Origin: Coprothermobacter proteolyticus DSM 5265
GTDB lineage: Bacteria > Coprothermobacterota > Coprothermobacteria > Coprothermobacterales > Coprothermobacteraceae
Reading direction: 5' to 3'
Length of the DNA: 64,000 nucleotides
Assembly: GCF_000020945.1 (NCBI RefSeq)
Contig: NC_011295.1
Location: forward strand, 930,001-994,000
A program made the translations under genes and the position numbers. Under the pieces are notes generated by a model, which saw only the letters and a list, made by a program, of their open reading frames with translations, did not search any database and was not told the DNA's origin. Below, piece after piece: positions 33,440 to 41,715 of this stretch (its first letter is position 1; each line of letters starts with the position of its first letter).

Positions 33440-34458
33440 TAGTAGTTGCCTCCTTTTCCTAAGAATACGCATGTCGAAGGGTAGTCCACACCAGTGGCAG
33501 TTACAACAATGTCAGAAGCCGTCAACTGCACAGACTCCGGACATAGGAATCTGTAGACACTGCCTTCCAATATGAATTCGCTTGCCACCATGCGCTCAGC
33601 AGAGTAAGACACGGTTACCCACTGGTCCTCAGTTTCCAGCAATTCAACACCTTCAGGTAACTGAAGAGAAGCCTTAGCTGAGCTACTCCCAGCCCCTACC
33701 GTCACGCGTGAAGTCTTAATAAAAGCTACAGACTCAAGAGCACTGGCCGTACCCTGCACAGTGACTACCCGAGGTCTCACAGAATAACTCTTAAGAAAGA
33801 CGTTTGGCGGCACGTCAAACTGCGGAAGTACAGCAACCTGCATGGTTACAATGTCCTTTGCTTGCTGAATCGTAACAGTGAGTAAGTCAGGACTAATCTT
33901 AACGTTCTCCACTAAATTACCTGATTTGTCCACTGCAATAGCCTTTAACTGCATCACTTCTGCACCTGAAACAGGGCTCTCTGTCTTTATGTCAGCGACC
34001 TTTGCCACAGCGGTTTCAGGTCCTGTGACAATGACTTGTCCTGGCTCCACTTTCATATTGAGTAAGTTCACTGGCATGAGCTTGCTAACAATGGGCTCCA
34101 CGTGAACCTTTACTTTGCTCGGATTTATGGAAATCAGCCTACCAGATGTGGGAGCAAAGGTCTGCAGAGTTAACTCTTGATCGCCCCACTTTGCTTGATC
34201 CAGACGCACAAATACCACTGGTGGTTCTTTATCACCTATGAGTGGCACTTCGTAAGTAACTTCCACAACCGCTGGCGTGACCTCGTAGTACCAGTTTGCC
34301 TGACCATTGACCTGCAGAACTTCTACTTGTTCGCTTACACGTACAGGCAGGCTCCCTGCAGCCACTGAAGACCACAGGCCCAAAGCGATAAGAAAAGACA
34401 GTAGCAGCAGTTTAGTCTTATCAGAAAACTCGAATTTTTTCTTGCTATTATTTTTCAT
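33439..34458 (-). CDS. cdaR: YbbR-domain protein, CdaR-like regulator of the diadenylate cyclase
   Basis: About 339 residues: a basic N-terminus, one membrane helix (KLLLLSFLIALGLWSSVA), then extracellular YbbR repeats recognised by their hydrophobic/valine-rich strands (for example VNLLNMKVEPGQVIVTGPETAVAKV and VTVQGTASALESV). CdaR binds and tunes CdaA in Firmicutes. The start is ATG 34458 or GTG 34467; I take the ATG. It overlaps cdaA by about ten bases and glmM by one, in the conserved order cdaA-cdaR-glmM. Confidence 0.88.
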   Translation of the reverse strand: MKNNSKKKFEFSDKTKLLLLSFLIALGLWSSVAAGSLPVRVSEQVEVLQVNGQANWYYEVTPAVVEVTYEVPLIGDKEPPVVFVRLDQAKWGDQELTLQTFAPTSGRLISINPSKVKVHVEPIVSKLMPVNLLNMKVEPGQVIVTGPETAVAKVADIKTESPVSGAEVMQLKAIAVDKSGNLVENVKISPDLLTVTIQQAKDIVTMQVAVLPQFDVPPNVFLKSYSVRPRVVTVQGTASALESVAFIKTSRVTVGAGSSSAKASLQLPEGVELLETEDQWVTVSYSAERMVASEFILEGSVYRFLCPESVQLTASDIVVTATGVDYPSTCVFLGKGGNY

Positions 34459-35248
34459 GGTTCCCACCAGGAGATATAAAAGATTCTAATATAAAAGGCA
34501 GGTCTTTTAGCTCCACATACCTGGTTAGGTGACCTTTATAGGCAAAGCTGATGATACCAGTTTCTTCAGAAACCACTAATGCCACTGCATCGGTTTCTTC
34601 ACTGATGCCAATCGCCGCTCTGTGCCGTGTTCCAATGCGGTCATCTCGCCTATCAGCCAACGGAAGTATGACCCGTGCGGCCACAATGCGGTCTTCCTTA
34701 ATGATTACGGCGCCATCATGGAGAGGACTCCTAGTATTAAATATGGACAAGAGTAAGTCTGCAGAAACCTGAGCGTTTAACATAGTTCCTGATTGTTGTA
34801 TGAGATCCTTTAGACCCACTTTACCTTCAAACACAATTAGAGCACCGGTACGGTTAGCCGACAAAAGTTCCACAGCTCTGACTACTTCATTAATGACACG
34901 CTTGATATCGTACTCAGGAACCGCTTTAAAAAGGTTCTTAAAAGGATCCAAACTGAACTCCTCCAAGGCTCGCCGAAGTTCTGGCTGAAAAATGACAGGT
35001 ATGGCAAAGATCATCATGGTGGCGACGTTGTTGAAAAGCCATGTTGTAAGCTGCAATGAAGAAAACAATTTACCCAGCCAACTGAGTACAGCTAAACTAG
35101 CTAATATGATTAGCAACCCTCGTGCCAAATGATAGCCCCGTGTCCCGTAAATACTGGACAACAGCCAATACAACAATGCCGTCACCAACGCCACATCGAT
35201 GACGGCACCAAGAATTGTTCCCACACTTGGCAAGAAATTACTTATCAT
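34448..35248 (-). CDS. cdaA: Diadenylate cyclase CdaA
   Basis: The 266-residue protein has three N-terminal membrane helices (about residues 10-90) and a DisA_N cyclase domain with both catalytic motifs, DGA at 178-180 (SPLHDGAVII) and RHR at 208-210 (GTRHRAAIG). It joins two ATP molecules into c-di-AMP, which controls K+ transport and cell-wall homeostasis. The gene overlaps arcC by four bases and cdaR by about ten. Candidate target systems in the window are TrkH/TrkA. Confidence 0.95.
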   Translation of the reverse strand: MISNFLPSVGTILGAVIDVALVTALLYWLLSSIYGTRGYHLARGLLIILASLAVLSWLGKLFSSLQLTTWLFNNVATMMIFAIPVIFQPELRRALEEFSLDPFKNLFKAVPEYDIKRVINEVVRAVELLSANRTGALIVFEGKVGLKDLIQQSGTMLNAQVSADLLLSIFNTRSPLHDGAVIIKEDRIVAARVILPLADRRDDRIGTRHRAAIGISEETDAVALVVSEETGIISFAYKGHLTRYVELKDLPFILESFISPGGNHEK

Positions 35249-36186
35249 CGATAAACTATTGTACCAGCTACACCCCTTACTACTGCCTCCGCTTCTTCCA
35301 AAGACCCAATTGCAACCTGGCCATCAACGTTTTCCAAGTACTTGATGGCAGCCAAAATCTTGGGACCCATAGACCCAGCAGGGAAGTGCCCCTGGTCATA
35401 GAGCTCTTTTAAGTAATCCAGCTTCGCCCTTTCTAAAGGCTGCTGGTGATCACTTTTGTAGTTGATGTAGACCTTGTCTACCTGAGTCAATATGACAAAA
35501 AGCTCTGCTTTTAGCTCTACTGCCAATAAGGAAGACGCTAAATCCTTATCAATGACAGCTTCCACTCCGCGCAAAGCTCCGTCATGCTCCACAACAGGAA
35601 TACCACCGCCACCCACGGTGATAGGCACAATGCTTTCCTCCATTAATGCCCTAATGGAGGAAAGCTCAACAATTCTACGCGGCATGGGAGATGGCACGAC
35701 ACGCCTGTACCCTCTGCCTTTGTCCTCTTTGAAAACCCAGCCTTTTTCAGCTTGAATTTGCATCGCAGTCTCGTAGTCGTATGTGGGCCCTACAAACTTG
35801 CTTGGGTTATTGAAGGCTGGATCATCCTCATCCACTACTACTTGCGTTACCAAAGAAACAAAGCTTCGTTTTTCTTTTGCCAGCGCTACGACGTTATGAA
35901 AAGCATTTTGAAGCACGTACCCAATATAACCCTCTGTAGTTGCATCCAACACATCTAAGGGGAAAGGAGTGACCACGTCCTTTGCCCTGTCATGGCGCAG
36001 AAGTTCTGTACCCACTTGTGGCCCGTTACCATGGGTTATGGCTAAACTGATACTCTTATCAGTGACTAGTCGCAAAAGCTGAGCAGCAGTACGCTCAGCG
36101 GCATACTGCTGCCCCTCTATGCCATCGGGCCCGTCTGGAAGCTGGAGAGCGTTTCCGCCCAAGGCAAGAACTACTTTCATGAGCAC
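35245..36186 (-). CDS. arcC: Carbamate kinase
   Basis: The 313-residue protein of the amino-acid kinase family shows VVLALGGNALQLPD, ITHGNGPQVG, VTQVVVDEDDPAFNNPSKFVGP, RRVVPSPMPRRIVE, TVGGGGIPVVE, VIDKDLASSLLA and a C-terminal GSMGPKILAAIKYLE. Carbamate kinase makes ATP from carbamoyl phosphate and ADP in arginine (citrulline) fermentation. It lies between ornithine carbamoyltransferase (one-base overlap) and cdaA (four-base overlap). An arginine deiminase gene is not nearby. Confidence 0.95.
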   Translation of the reverse strand: MLMKVVLALGGNALQLPDGPDGIEGQQYAAERTAAQLLRLVTDKSISLAITHGNGPQVGTELLRHDRAKDVVTPFPLDVLDATTEGYIGYVLQNAFHNVVALAKEKRSFVSLVTQVVVDEDDPAFNNPSKFVGPTYDYETAMQIQAEKGWVFKEDKGRGYRRVVPSPMPRRIVELSSIRALMEESIVPITVGGGGIPVVEHDGALRGVEAVIDKDLASSLLAVELKAELFVILTQVDKVYINYKSDHQQPLERAKLDYLKELYDQGHFPAGSMGPKILAAIKYLENVDGQVAIGSLEEAEAVVRGVAGTIVYR

Positions 36187-39201: not shown

Positions 39202-40268
39202 GGTTCCTGTGCACTACGCCATTCCACTACTATTTATTTGAGCCTGTTAAGAAACTCTTGAGCAATAGTAACTACGTTTTGGTAGAATCCAATCCTCGTC
39301 AATACAGATCTGCACGAGAATTCTTTAGAGACAGGCATGTGTTTGACGCAGTGGAAAACCCGCAAGTGATAAAAGATTTTGACGTATTGGTTTGCCCTTT
39401 TCTGATGCCTCTGGTTTACAAAGAAAATCAAGAAAAAATATTTGTGCGCATGGTTTATGGTTTGAGTAAAGCCACTTGGAACTACGGTTGGTGGAATATG
39501 TTGTTTGACGAATTTCTAGTTTATGGTAACTACGATGCAAAGATTCTGTCTTTTTATGGACCAACGGTGAAAATTGGCAATCCGAAATTTGACGATTGGT
39601 TCAATGGCAACGTTGAACCATACCCAGTAGAGCCAAACAAGAAAACCATATTGTACTTACCCACTTATGATGATTTGTCCACATTGTCTTGGGTGCTACC
39701 TGTTTTAAGCAAGATGGCAGAAAACTTCAATGTGATACTCAAGACCCACCATGGGACAAACGCCTCAGAACTAAAGAAAGTCTTTTCAAGAGTGGAAATA
39801 CTGGGAGGCGACGTGGACATCTTGCCCCTACTAGCTTCGGCCGATGTGGTAGTCTCCGATTACTCTGGCGCCATTTTCGATGCTATCTTGGCCGAAAAGC
39901 CCTTGGTTTTAGCTGATATACCGGGAGCTGAAACGTTCCCAAGTACCACGCCTAGCAGCTTGGAGCACGTAGTGCGTAACTACGCACTGCACACCAGCGA
40001 CCAAGCTTTACTACGTGATTACATAGTGCAGGCGCTGGAGGAAGATCCTTACTTGGAAAAGCGTAAGGAAGTAGCTCAAGAATGGTTTGCTGTACGTGAC
40101 GGAACGAGCGGGCAAAGAGCCGCTCAAGCCATAGTCAATGCACAGAAAGATCAGCGTGAAGAAAAACGTTTTGTACAAAAGGCTTTGCTGACATCAACTG
40201 AGTTCAACAAGGACCTTTATAAGAAAAAAGCTGAGCGCTTCCTGGGAAAATATTTTTCTTGGCTATAA
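39192..40268 (+). CDS. CDP-glycerol glycerophosphotransferase-like envelope polymer enzyme
   Basis: The 358-residue protein has the C-terminal signature of the TagB/TagF family: TILYLPTYDD near 152, ILKTHHG near 182, LPLLASADVVVSDYSGAIFDAILAEKPLV (Asp223 to Val239) and ADIPGAE. TagB/TagF enzymes add glycerol phosphate to a lipid-linked primer after TagA, and this gene overlaps the TagA-like gene by ten bases, so the pair probably builds a surface polymer. The donor is not provable from sequence. I start at ATG 39192 (MQIGFLCTTPFHYYLF); the upstream in-frame extension only overlaps the previous gene. Confidence 0.82.
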   Translation: MQIGFLCTTPFHYYLFEPVKKLLSNSNYVLVESNPRQYRSAREFFRDRHVFDAVENPQVIKDFDVLVCPFLMPLVYKENQEKIFVRMVYGLSKATWNYGWWNMLFDEFLVYGNYDAKILSFYGPTVKIGNPKFDDWFNGNVEPYPVEPNKKTILYLPTYDDLSTLSWVLPVLSKMAENFNVILKTHHGTNASELKKVFSRVEILGGDVDILPLLASADVVVSDYSGAIFDAILAEKPLVLADIPGAETFPSTTPSSLEHVVRNYALHTSDQALLRDYIVQALEEDPYLEKRKEVAQEWFAVRDGTSGQRAAQAIVNAQKDQREEKRFVQKALLTSTEFNKDLYKKKAERFLGKYFSWL

Positions 40269-40277
40269 TGTTAAAAT
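40269..40277 (+). promoter_or_regulatory. Candidate extended -10 for the peptide-maturase pair
   Basis: TGTTAAAAT (40269-40277) immediately follows the stop of the preceding gene, and a perfect TATAAT (40264-40269) overlaps it. Either could serve as a -10; no clear -35 exists. The RNA would have a leader of about 45 bases with an imperfect TTTCTTAA/TTAAGGAAA hairpin at 40296-40312, then GAGGAGGTG. Confidence 0.4.
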
Positions 40278-40327
40278 GAAAGCGTGTTTTCTTAAGTTAA
40301 GGAAACTGAGGAGGTGCAAAACAAACT

Positions 40328-40447
40328 ATGGTAAGAGTGATTATAAAGAACGAACTGCAGAAAGAAGAAGATTTTAAAGGCGCTTGCCAAACAGCCTGCA
40401 AAACGTCAGCAACTGTGAGCAACGTCACCTTCGAACCTGAGCAGTGA
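40328..40447 (+). CDS. Minimal SCIFF/ranthipeptide-like precursor peptide (two cysteines)
   Basis: A 39-residue peptide gene too short for routine gene calling. GAGGAGGTG lies 9 bases before the ATG. The core GACQTACKTSATVSN (residues 18-32) matches the C-terminal part of SCIFF (six Cys in forty-five residues) precursors, whose consensus there is close to CQSACKTSCTVGN. Only Cys20 and Cys24 remain; the other family cysteines are replaced, for example Ala28 in the place of one Cys. Thr29 lies five residues after Cys24, the same spacing as the Cys-Thr thioether made by the studied maturase CteB. The stop codon overlaps the GTG start of the radical SAM gene by four bases (GTGA). Recognition of the family is by eye; the modification is inferred. 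Confidence 0.8.
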   Translation: MVRVIIKNELQKEEDFKGACQTACKTSATVSNVTFEPEQ

Positions 40448-41715
40448 GTCTTTACCCATTTTCTCTTTTAGGCCGTTTCTTCGTCGTCCACGAAGAAACG
40501 GGCTCTTTTTTTGAAGTTGACCAGGAAGTTTTTGAAAACGTTCAGCAAGGCGAATGCCCTGATGAGCTCACAGCTGTGTTACCTGAGCAGCCCACCTTGG
40601 AATGGCTCAGAAACCAACTTGAACAGAGACCAAGGCAGCTTAGTGCGTTGTGTCTGAACGTAACTCATACTTGCAACATGGCTTGCAAATACTGTTTTGC
40701 TCAGCAGGGAAACTACGGTGGTCAGCAGGCTGTCATGGACTTTGCCGTTGCAAAGGATGCTGTGGACTTACTCATGAAAAGCTCTTCTTCCTGGGCAGAT
40801 ATTGATTTTTTTGGTGGTGAGCCGCTTATTGCTTGGGACACCGTTGAGCAAACCCTAGCTTATGCCACAGAAAGAGCCATGGCAAAGAACAAGAAAGTAA
40901 GGTTTTCTCTGACCACTAATGGACTGCTACTAACCCCGGATAAGCTGGATGTACTTGATCGGTACAATGTAAATCTGACATTGTCACTGGATGGTCCAAG
41001 GGTGGTTCATGACAAGTTTCGCGTTGACAGAGCAGGAGATGGCACCTTCGACAAGGTCATTGAAGCTTTCAAAGAGGTAGAGCGGAGACGCCAAGGGAAA
41101 AACTACTACGTACGAGGCACTTTCACCCATGACACACTGAATTTCTCAGAGTCTGTCACGTTTTTGGTGGATCAGGGTTTCAAGACCATTTCTATGGAGC
41201 CAGTAACAGGCGAAGGGCTACCATGGAGCATAAAATGGTCTGATTTGCCCATAATTGAGCAGCAGTACGAAAAGTTAGCAAATTTCTATTTGATGCGCGC
41301 TAAGGAAGGAAATGATAAGAGATTTTACTTTTACCACTTTGAGCTCAACCCAATGAATCCACCCTCAGTGTTAAGGCGTTTTACTGGTTGTGGAGCTGGT
41401 GTGGAATACCTCGCGGTAAACCCAAAGGGAGATATCTTCCCCTGTCACCAATTTGACAACGTCCTGTCATACAAAATGGGTAACGTTGGACAAGCTGCGG
41501 TAAAGCCACATCCTGATTTTGTGAAAGCCCACGCACTCAACAAAAAACATTGTCAAGGATGCTGGGCAAGAGCTTTGTGCGGTGGCGGTTGCCATGCAGA
41601 TAGCTTTTTCACCACGGGGAACATATGGGGCCAGAACCCCCTAAGCTGTGAAATTGTAAGAATGAGGCTTCGGTACGCCTTGGCAGTTAATGCTGTCTTG
41701 CAGGACTTTACCTAG
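40444..41715 (+). CDS. SPASM-domain radical SAM peptide maturase (SCIFF/CteB-like thioether-forming)
   Basis: The 423-residue protein has an N-terminal part (1-70, FFEVDQEVFENV) like the peptide-recognition region of such enzymes, the radical SAM cluster motif CNMACKYC (Cys77, Cys81, Cys84), GGEPL near 124, SLTTNG and SLDGP. The SPASM region has Cys316 and Cys334 (CGAGVEYLAVNPKGDIFPC pattern) and CQGCWARALCGGGC (Cys370, 373, 379, 383), then Cys402, enough for two auxiliary 4Fe-4S clusters. Such enzymes cross-link Cys sulphur to a backbone carbon of an acceptor residue. It is translationally coupled to the peptide gene just upstream. No peptidase or exporter is adjacent. Confidence 0.92.
   Translation: MSLYPFSLLGRFFVVHEETGSFFEVDQEVFENVQQGECPDELTAVLPEQPTLEWLRNQLEQRPRQLSALCLNVTHTCNMACKYCFAQQGNYGGQQAVMDFAVAKDAVDLLMKSSSSWADIDFFGGEPLIAWDTVEQTLAYATERAMAKNKKVRFSLTTNGLLLTPDKLDVLDRYNVNLTLSLDGPRVVHDKFRVDRAGDGTFDKVIEAFKEVERRRQGKNYYVRGTFTHDTLNFSESVTFLVDQGFKTISMEPVTGEGLPWSIKWSDLPIIEQQYEKLANFYLMRAKEGNDKRFYFYHFELNPMNPPSVLRRFTGCGAGVEYLAVNPKGDIFPCHQFDNVLSYKMGNVGQAAVKPHPDFVKAHALNKKHCQGCWARALCGGGCHADSFFTTGNIWGQNPLSCEIVRMRLRYALAVNAVLQDFT

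Follow-up and report, generated by a model that had tools for sequence, protein, structure and literature searches.

SCIFFs rank among the most broadly distributed RiPPs. How their rings are connected is a matter of dispute, and little is known about what they do. In the best comparison for the locus described here, the precursor CteA and its maturase CteB, the CteA leader binds the CteB RRE as a strand (PMC8326336), and a ring is closed through C-gamma between Cys32 and either Thr37 or Thr34 (PMC8326336, PMC8172795). The Cys32–Thr37 bond is a contested in vitro assignment, whereas co-expression in E. coli gave Cys32–Thr34 (PMC8326336, PMC8172795). In published structures, CteA Cys21, the C1 position of the family, fills the open site of the Aux I cluster (PMC6231123). 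Disruption of precursor and maturase in C. beijerinckii lowers sporulation gene expression and raises agr (PMC8102284). Our search of the open literature turned up no description of a Coprothermobacter SCIFF. Judged by sequence, the pair analyzed here is a phylum-wide minimal variant of the known SCIFF system.

The window, a 64-kb stretch of the Coprothermobacter proteolyticus DSM 5265 genome, carries the pair as two overlapping genes on the forward strand. An easily missed ORF at 40328–40447 opens with ATG and encodes a SCIFF-like precursor peptide of 39 residues with two cysteines, MVRVIIKNELQKEEDFKGACQTACKTSATVSNVTFEPEQ. Its TGA stop (40445–40447) shares a GTGA overlap with the GTG start of the maturase, a 423-residue radical SAM/SPASM protein of the CteB/ScfB type (40444–41715), just as the original prediction described. 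The peptide comprises a putative leader (residues 1–18, 40328–40381), assigned by analogy with CteA/CteB and from the aligned leaders of relatives, and a core running from Cys20 to Asn32, CQTACKTSATVSN (40385–40423). A ribosome-binding site, GAGGAGGTG (40308–40316), stands 11 nt before the ATG, and a GGAGG-type site is retained upstream of the peptide gene in the relatives L003, L073, L074, and L075. Farther upstream, TGTTAAAAT (40269–40277, forward strand) was picked out by eye as a possible extended -10 promoter element; the same string occupies the equivalent place in L003 and L073, L074 has GTGGTAAAAT instead, and a promoter scan did not call the element at 40269–40277. In families f1 and f2 of the Coprothermobacterota, the pair sits between TagA-like glycosyltransferase genes and mutL/mutS; the pair of family f3 has another genomic setting.

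Searched with the SCIFF models, the peptide is matched over residues 18–33 only, significantly but below the curated cut-offs, both by TIGR03973 (22.5 bits against a cut-off of 50; E 8e-5) and by PF13165 (20.7 bits against a cut-off of 27; E 4e-4), so that the anticipated model match stood in significance and fell short in score. The f3 peptides reach 32.3 bits in this test. With two cysteines in 39 residues, the window peptide lies outside the usual description of a SCIFF precursor, six (at least five) cysteines in ~45 residues. It nonetheless displays the core motif C-x2-A-x-K-T with Asn at +12, including all positions found invariant in the survey of 106 cores described below, and it is encoded with a SCIFF maturase in an overlapping gene whose adjacency is conserved in relatives. 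Peptide orthologues adjoin the maturase in eight of nine Coprothermobacterota genomes, the ninth contig ending at the maturase, and the core motif occurs once in each of eight of the nine. The 13-residue core is identical in six species of families f1 and f2, whose 13 codons differ pairwise by 5–11 synonymous and 0 non-synonymous changes; the f3 core is CQSACKTSCTIAN. Among the eight readable peptides of the phylum, those of f1 and f2 have two cysteines and those of f3 have three. Cys20, Cys24, and Thr29, correctly named in the original prediction, are conserved in all two-cysteine relatives. No two-cysteine core was found in 399 sampled Clostridia-type genomes, and a TIGR03973 search found no six-cysteine paralogue elsewhere in the window's genome.

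Because the orthologues lie beside the maturase and the core diverges at synonymous positions only, this is not a chance ORF; on this comparative evidence, purifying selection maintains the peptide ORF as a genuine gene. The same divergence pattern led us to reject a chance or decayed gene, and it largely refutes the related idea that peptide and maturase are both decaying as a non-functional relic. Four of the six cysteines and one maturase cysteine have indeed been lost, but selection on the core is strict, the maturase is intact in nine of nine genomes, the ribosome-binding site is conserved, and the genes overlap or are closely spaced, leaving a relic with a very small probability.

The maturase was found in all nine Coprothermobacterota genomes examined. 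Its closest solved relative by sequence is CteB (5WGG, E 7e-96), and an AlphaFold2 model (pLDDT 91.1) likewise finds 5WGG as its best Foldseek match (E 1.3e-37, TM 0.87, 35% identity). Against TIGR03974 it scores 400.7 bits over profile positions 87–450 of 451, short of the cut-off of 425; all nine maturases of the phylum fall at 385–401 bits. NF047865 ranks third among families, at 266 bits. We aligned 106 maturase rows, duplicates included and two non-SCIFF outgroups among them. All ten Fe-S cysteines of the window enzyme are retained and are present in 106/106 rows: the radical SAM CxxxCxxC of the CNMACKYC motif (Cys77, 81, and 84; 40672–40695) and seven SPASM cysteines (Cys316, 334, 370, 373, 379, 383, and 402; 41389–41649). 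Residues 1–61 (40444–40626) form a compact N-terminal RRE, modeled with high confidence as beta-beta-beta-alpha-alpha-alpha (E3-8, E11-16, E22-25, H27-34, H40-43, H52-61) and more compact than its aligned clostridial counterparts, which are longer. In the tree, the f1/f2 maturases make one clade (100/100) inside a 98/98 set that includes above-cut-off SCIFF maturases, and by this nesting the enzyme belongs to the family by descent. The f3 enzymes are placed apart, but with p=0.26 in the AU test for a single Coprothermobacterota clade, the reduction may have arisen once or twice. The low score reflects model coverage, because related sub-cut-off maturases go with ordinary four- to six-cysteine SCIFFs.

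These data bear on whether the short-RRE maturase makes some other modification, the SCIFF core being retained by descent alone. Such altered chemistry would be in keeping with two profile matches below cut-off, a shortened RRE and core–leader spacing, and a serine (Ser308) in the linker cysteine position; it is nevertheless improbable, since the cluster cysteines are all invariant, the fold is almost that of CteB, the reactive-site core residues are unaltered, and the other sub-cut-off maturases pair with ordinary SCIFFs. Both proteins are SCIFF proteins by descent, as far as sequence can tell, though curated rules would name neither. Since both score below those cut-offs, the pair is a divergent SCIFF variant, nested among carriers of five to six cysteines. 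The earlier reading of a SCIFF-type precursor and maturase is thereby borne out by the CteB match, profile matches, fold, and relatives, and that of a reduced form by the nesting.

Natural variation in the core served as a mutation scan. We collected 106 distinct cores, from peptides beside maturases, in four phyla: Clostridia-type genomes, two further phyla, and the Coprothermobacterota. Five positions are invariant in 106/106, namely C3 (window Cys20), Ala (Ala23), Lys (Lys25), the Thr34 equivalent (Thr26), and Asn (Asn32); the peptide-search seeds contained C3 and K-[TS], and among HMM hits a single truncated fragment failed the core pattern. C4 (window Cys24) is present in 100/106 cores, the Thr37 equivalent (window Thr29) in 98/106, and C5 in 80/106. 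C1, C2, and C6 each occur in 99/106, the seven exceptions being all Coprothermobacterota. The clostridial cores collected all contain five or six cysteines, and those of the two other phyla have four to six. In four clostridial loci (L089, L090, L091, and L100), the core reads SASKTSCS, with C4 and Thr37 both replaced by serine and the maturases intact. In five loci of family f114 (L249, L251, and L253–L255), it reads CKSAAKTANT, with alanine where the published donor Cys32 stands and the maturase cluster cysteines complete; this family has lost C4 and C5 instead of C1, C2, and C6. A second clostridial group has changed Thr37 to Gly and retained C4. C3 and Thr34 are better conserved than the contested in vitro pair, Cys32–Thr37.

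Of 300 Clostridia-type genomes sampled, 237 have a maturase above the SCIFF cut-off, and nine clostridial maturase loci without an adjacent peptide lie in genomes that all encode a SCIFF peptide over cut-off. SCIFF systems of the two further phyla were seen at L206, L241, and L242 and at L205 and L217–L260; most of their peptides end in an aromatic tail (such as KRWIW, RFIW, or KWTW) absent from clostridial SCIFFs. In two Bacillota MAGs (L012 and L016), the SCIFF peptide frames open without ATG.

In window numbering, Cys32–Thr34 corresponds to Cys24–Thr26 and Cys32–Thr37 to Cys24–Thr29. The Cys24–Thr29 link originally proposed is not supported in that form: co-expression gave the equivalent of Cys24–Thr26 (PMC8326336, PMC8172795), the survey invariants are Thr26 and Cys20, and Cys24 and Thr29 have each been replaced in other lineages. 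A second ring, also entertained, fares no better, the residue at +5 from Cys20 being Lys25 rather than Thr and that at +2, Thr22, being serine in most SCIFFs. Because two other lineages lack the Cys24 equivalent and still have a maturase, the cross-link may not be the target of selection, or another cysteine may serve. The conserved chemistry could use Cys20, as sulphur donor or permanent Aux I ligand, with Cys24 auxiliary. The presence of C3 in all 106 cores speaks for this, as do the four clostridial loci with Ser and the five f114 loci with Ala at C4, whose maturases have every cluster cysteine. Biochemistry on CteA and Tte1186a, however, gives Cys32 (C4) as the donor (PMC8326336), C3 to Thr34 is a +6 spacing against the reported +2 or +5, and the search seeds contained C3, even if one truncated hit alone failed the pattern. 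We therefore regard a central role for Cys20 as rather unlikely, and keep Cys24 as the preferred donor.

The losses extend to the enzyme. At residue 308 (41365–41367), the alignment shows Ser where maturases of five- to six-cysteine SCIFFs have a linker cysteine. This cysteine, in a GPC motif before the SPASM domain (chain index 339 in the 5WGG sequence of CteB), is found in 83/83 rows outside the phylum and the outgroups, whose substrates bear C1, C2, and C6; in the nine Coprothermobacterota genomes, the position is Ser in all f1/f2 rows and Asp in all f3 rows. In the related enzymes SuiB and SkfB, the corresponding linker bears a residue that ligates Aux I or could do so (PMC6231123). In the sequences aligned, the linker cysteine is absent exactly where C1, C2, and C6 are absent. 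Given the AU result above, this correlation draws on one or two changes in evolution and does not prove contact. It is possible, if doubtful, that SCIFFs consist of two modules, an indispensable C3-x2-A-C4-K-T34-S and a second formed by C1, C2, C6, and the linker cysteine near Aux I, which the Coprothermobacterota discarded on both sides. If so, substrate C1 and the linker cysteine would be functional partners (in Aux I ligand exchange or a thiol relay, for example), and the Cys21–Aux I contact of the CteB crystal would be unnecessary for the core reaction.

A further feature lies within the maturase coding sequence. A perfect 12-bp hairpin (40473–40501, forward strand) begins 29 nt into the ORF and is followed by a T7 tract (40506–40512), as in an intrinsic terminator. 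A simple scan of the window returned no other stem of at least 11 bp that is free of G-U pairs and has a T-rich tail. The hairpin is kept in the three other f1 sequences that cover the region, with compensatory changes (two-sided G-C to A-T in L073; CGT/ACG to CGG/ACC in L074); the T tract is retained in L003 and broken up in L073 and L074. Synonymous codons are retained at 9/11, 7/10, and 7/11 positions in the stem versus 29/59, 15/50, and 19/45 downstream. Family f2 has a distinct 14-bp hairpin, without a T run, in the equivalent part of the gene. The f1 and f2 hairpins (six species) were reached by 0–1 of 400 synonymous-codon shuffles, and the f3 sequences do not attain this level. The f114 maturase genes also have a hairpin (0, 0, and 4 of 300 shuffles), and in several Clostridia the spacer that follows the precursor gene contains hairpins. 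Since 4 of 47 other window ORFs reach z below -3.2 in the codon-shuffle control, the weight of the hairpin rests on its conservation and not on one test. ORF 34448–35323 and three other window ORFs showed 5' hairpins above expectation in this control; near the 5' end of the former lies a 17-pair hairpin (six G-U) with a T-rich tail (35174–35210, reverse strand). The maturase hairpin likely serves to yield more peptide than enzyme, by a putative attenuation.

Taken together, the pair is probably a minimal SCIFF-type ranthipeptide system that makes one thioether, has shed a dispensable module, attenuates its enzyme, and produces a signalling peptide. The leader, MVRVIIKNEL, a predicted RRE-binding strand, would dock on the short RRE. 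Thr26 (or Thr29) would give up a hydrogen to the radical SAM center and then bond to the Cys24 sulphur, which the open Aux I cluster would activate, to close one C-gamma thioether ring, with a loss of 2 Da; by analogy, the product is most likely a single-thioether ranthipeptide. Cys20, the one cysteine whose equivalent no surveyed SCIFF has lost, would more plausibly position a cluster or act as a functional free thiol than donate to a second ring. C1, C2, and C6, with C5 in two families, and the linker cysteine would have been shed by the lineage and, being lost together, may be taken as a dispensable module. Unequal output of peptide and enzyme would follow from the start–stop overlap and from termination of part of the transcripts at the hairpin. 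The C. beijerinckii mutant phenotype sets a signalling or regulatory role as the prior, and the product probably acts in this way. To our knowledge, SCIFF loci generally lack an exporter. The absence of an adjacent exporter, taken earlier as a sign of intracellular action, is weak ground: an internal role would fit the strict core conservation and the lack of transport or protease genes that recur beside the pair, but is not demonstrated by them. ABC-2-type transporter genes lie near the pair in two relatives (L262:8263–9995 and L264:4284–6910), without conserved linkage elsewhere.

The variant is useful because it reduces the disputed SCIFF ring to a two-cysteine problem: with at most two possible donors in a natural peptide, a single mass-spectrometry experiment is enough to decide between the candidate cysteines and threonines. 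For mutation, the survey singles out Cys20, Thr26, and maturase residue 308. As every checkable genome of the phylum has a reduced form, evolution itself points to the parts of peptide and enzyme that are dispensable.

Compared with CteA/CteB (thermocellin, the SCIFF of Clostridium thermocellum; 5WGG/5WHY), the window likewise encodes a precursor and an RRE–radical SAM–SPASM maturase, the radical SAM and SPASM cysteines are all common, and the folds agree closely. The donor Cys32 and acceptor candidates Thr34 and Thr37 have their counterparts in Cys24, Thr26, and Thr29, C4 thus standing at 32 in CteA and at 24 in the window. CteA has six cysteines and the window peptide two, C1 (on Aux I in the crystal) being among those missing, and the window enzyme differs from CteB in its short RRE and in Ser308. 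Tte1186a/Tte1186 of Caldanaerobacter subterraneus is a thermophile SCIFF with equal donor–acceptor spacing (PMC8326336, PMC8172795); since Tte1186a has six cysteines, thermophily alone was rejected as the explanation for the reduction to two. In the two other phyla, the SCIFFs with four to six cysteines (L205, L206, and L217–L260) have a CRECQTPCKSACKTSxTVGNQ-type core and maturases that group with that of the window; unlike the window, they keep C1, C2, C6, and the linker cysteine, and f114 among them has lost C4 and C5. PapA/PapB (freyrasin) belongs to the ranthipeptide class, as proposed for the window product, and its family, NF047865, is the third-ranked one for the window maturase; PapA bears six Cys-X3-Asp beta-thioethers (PMC8172795), a motif absent from the window peptide.
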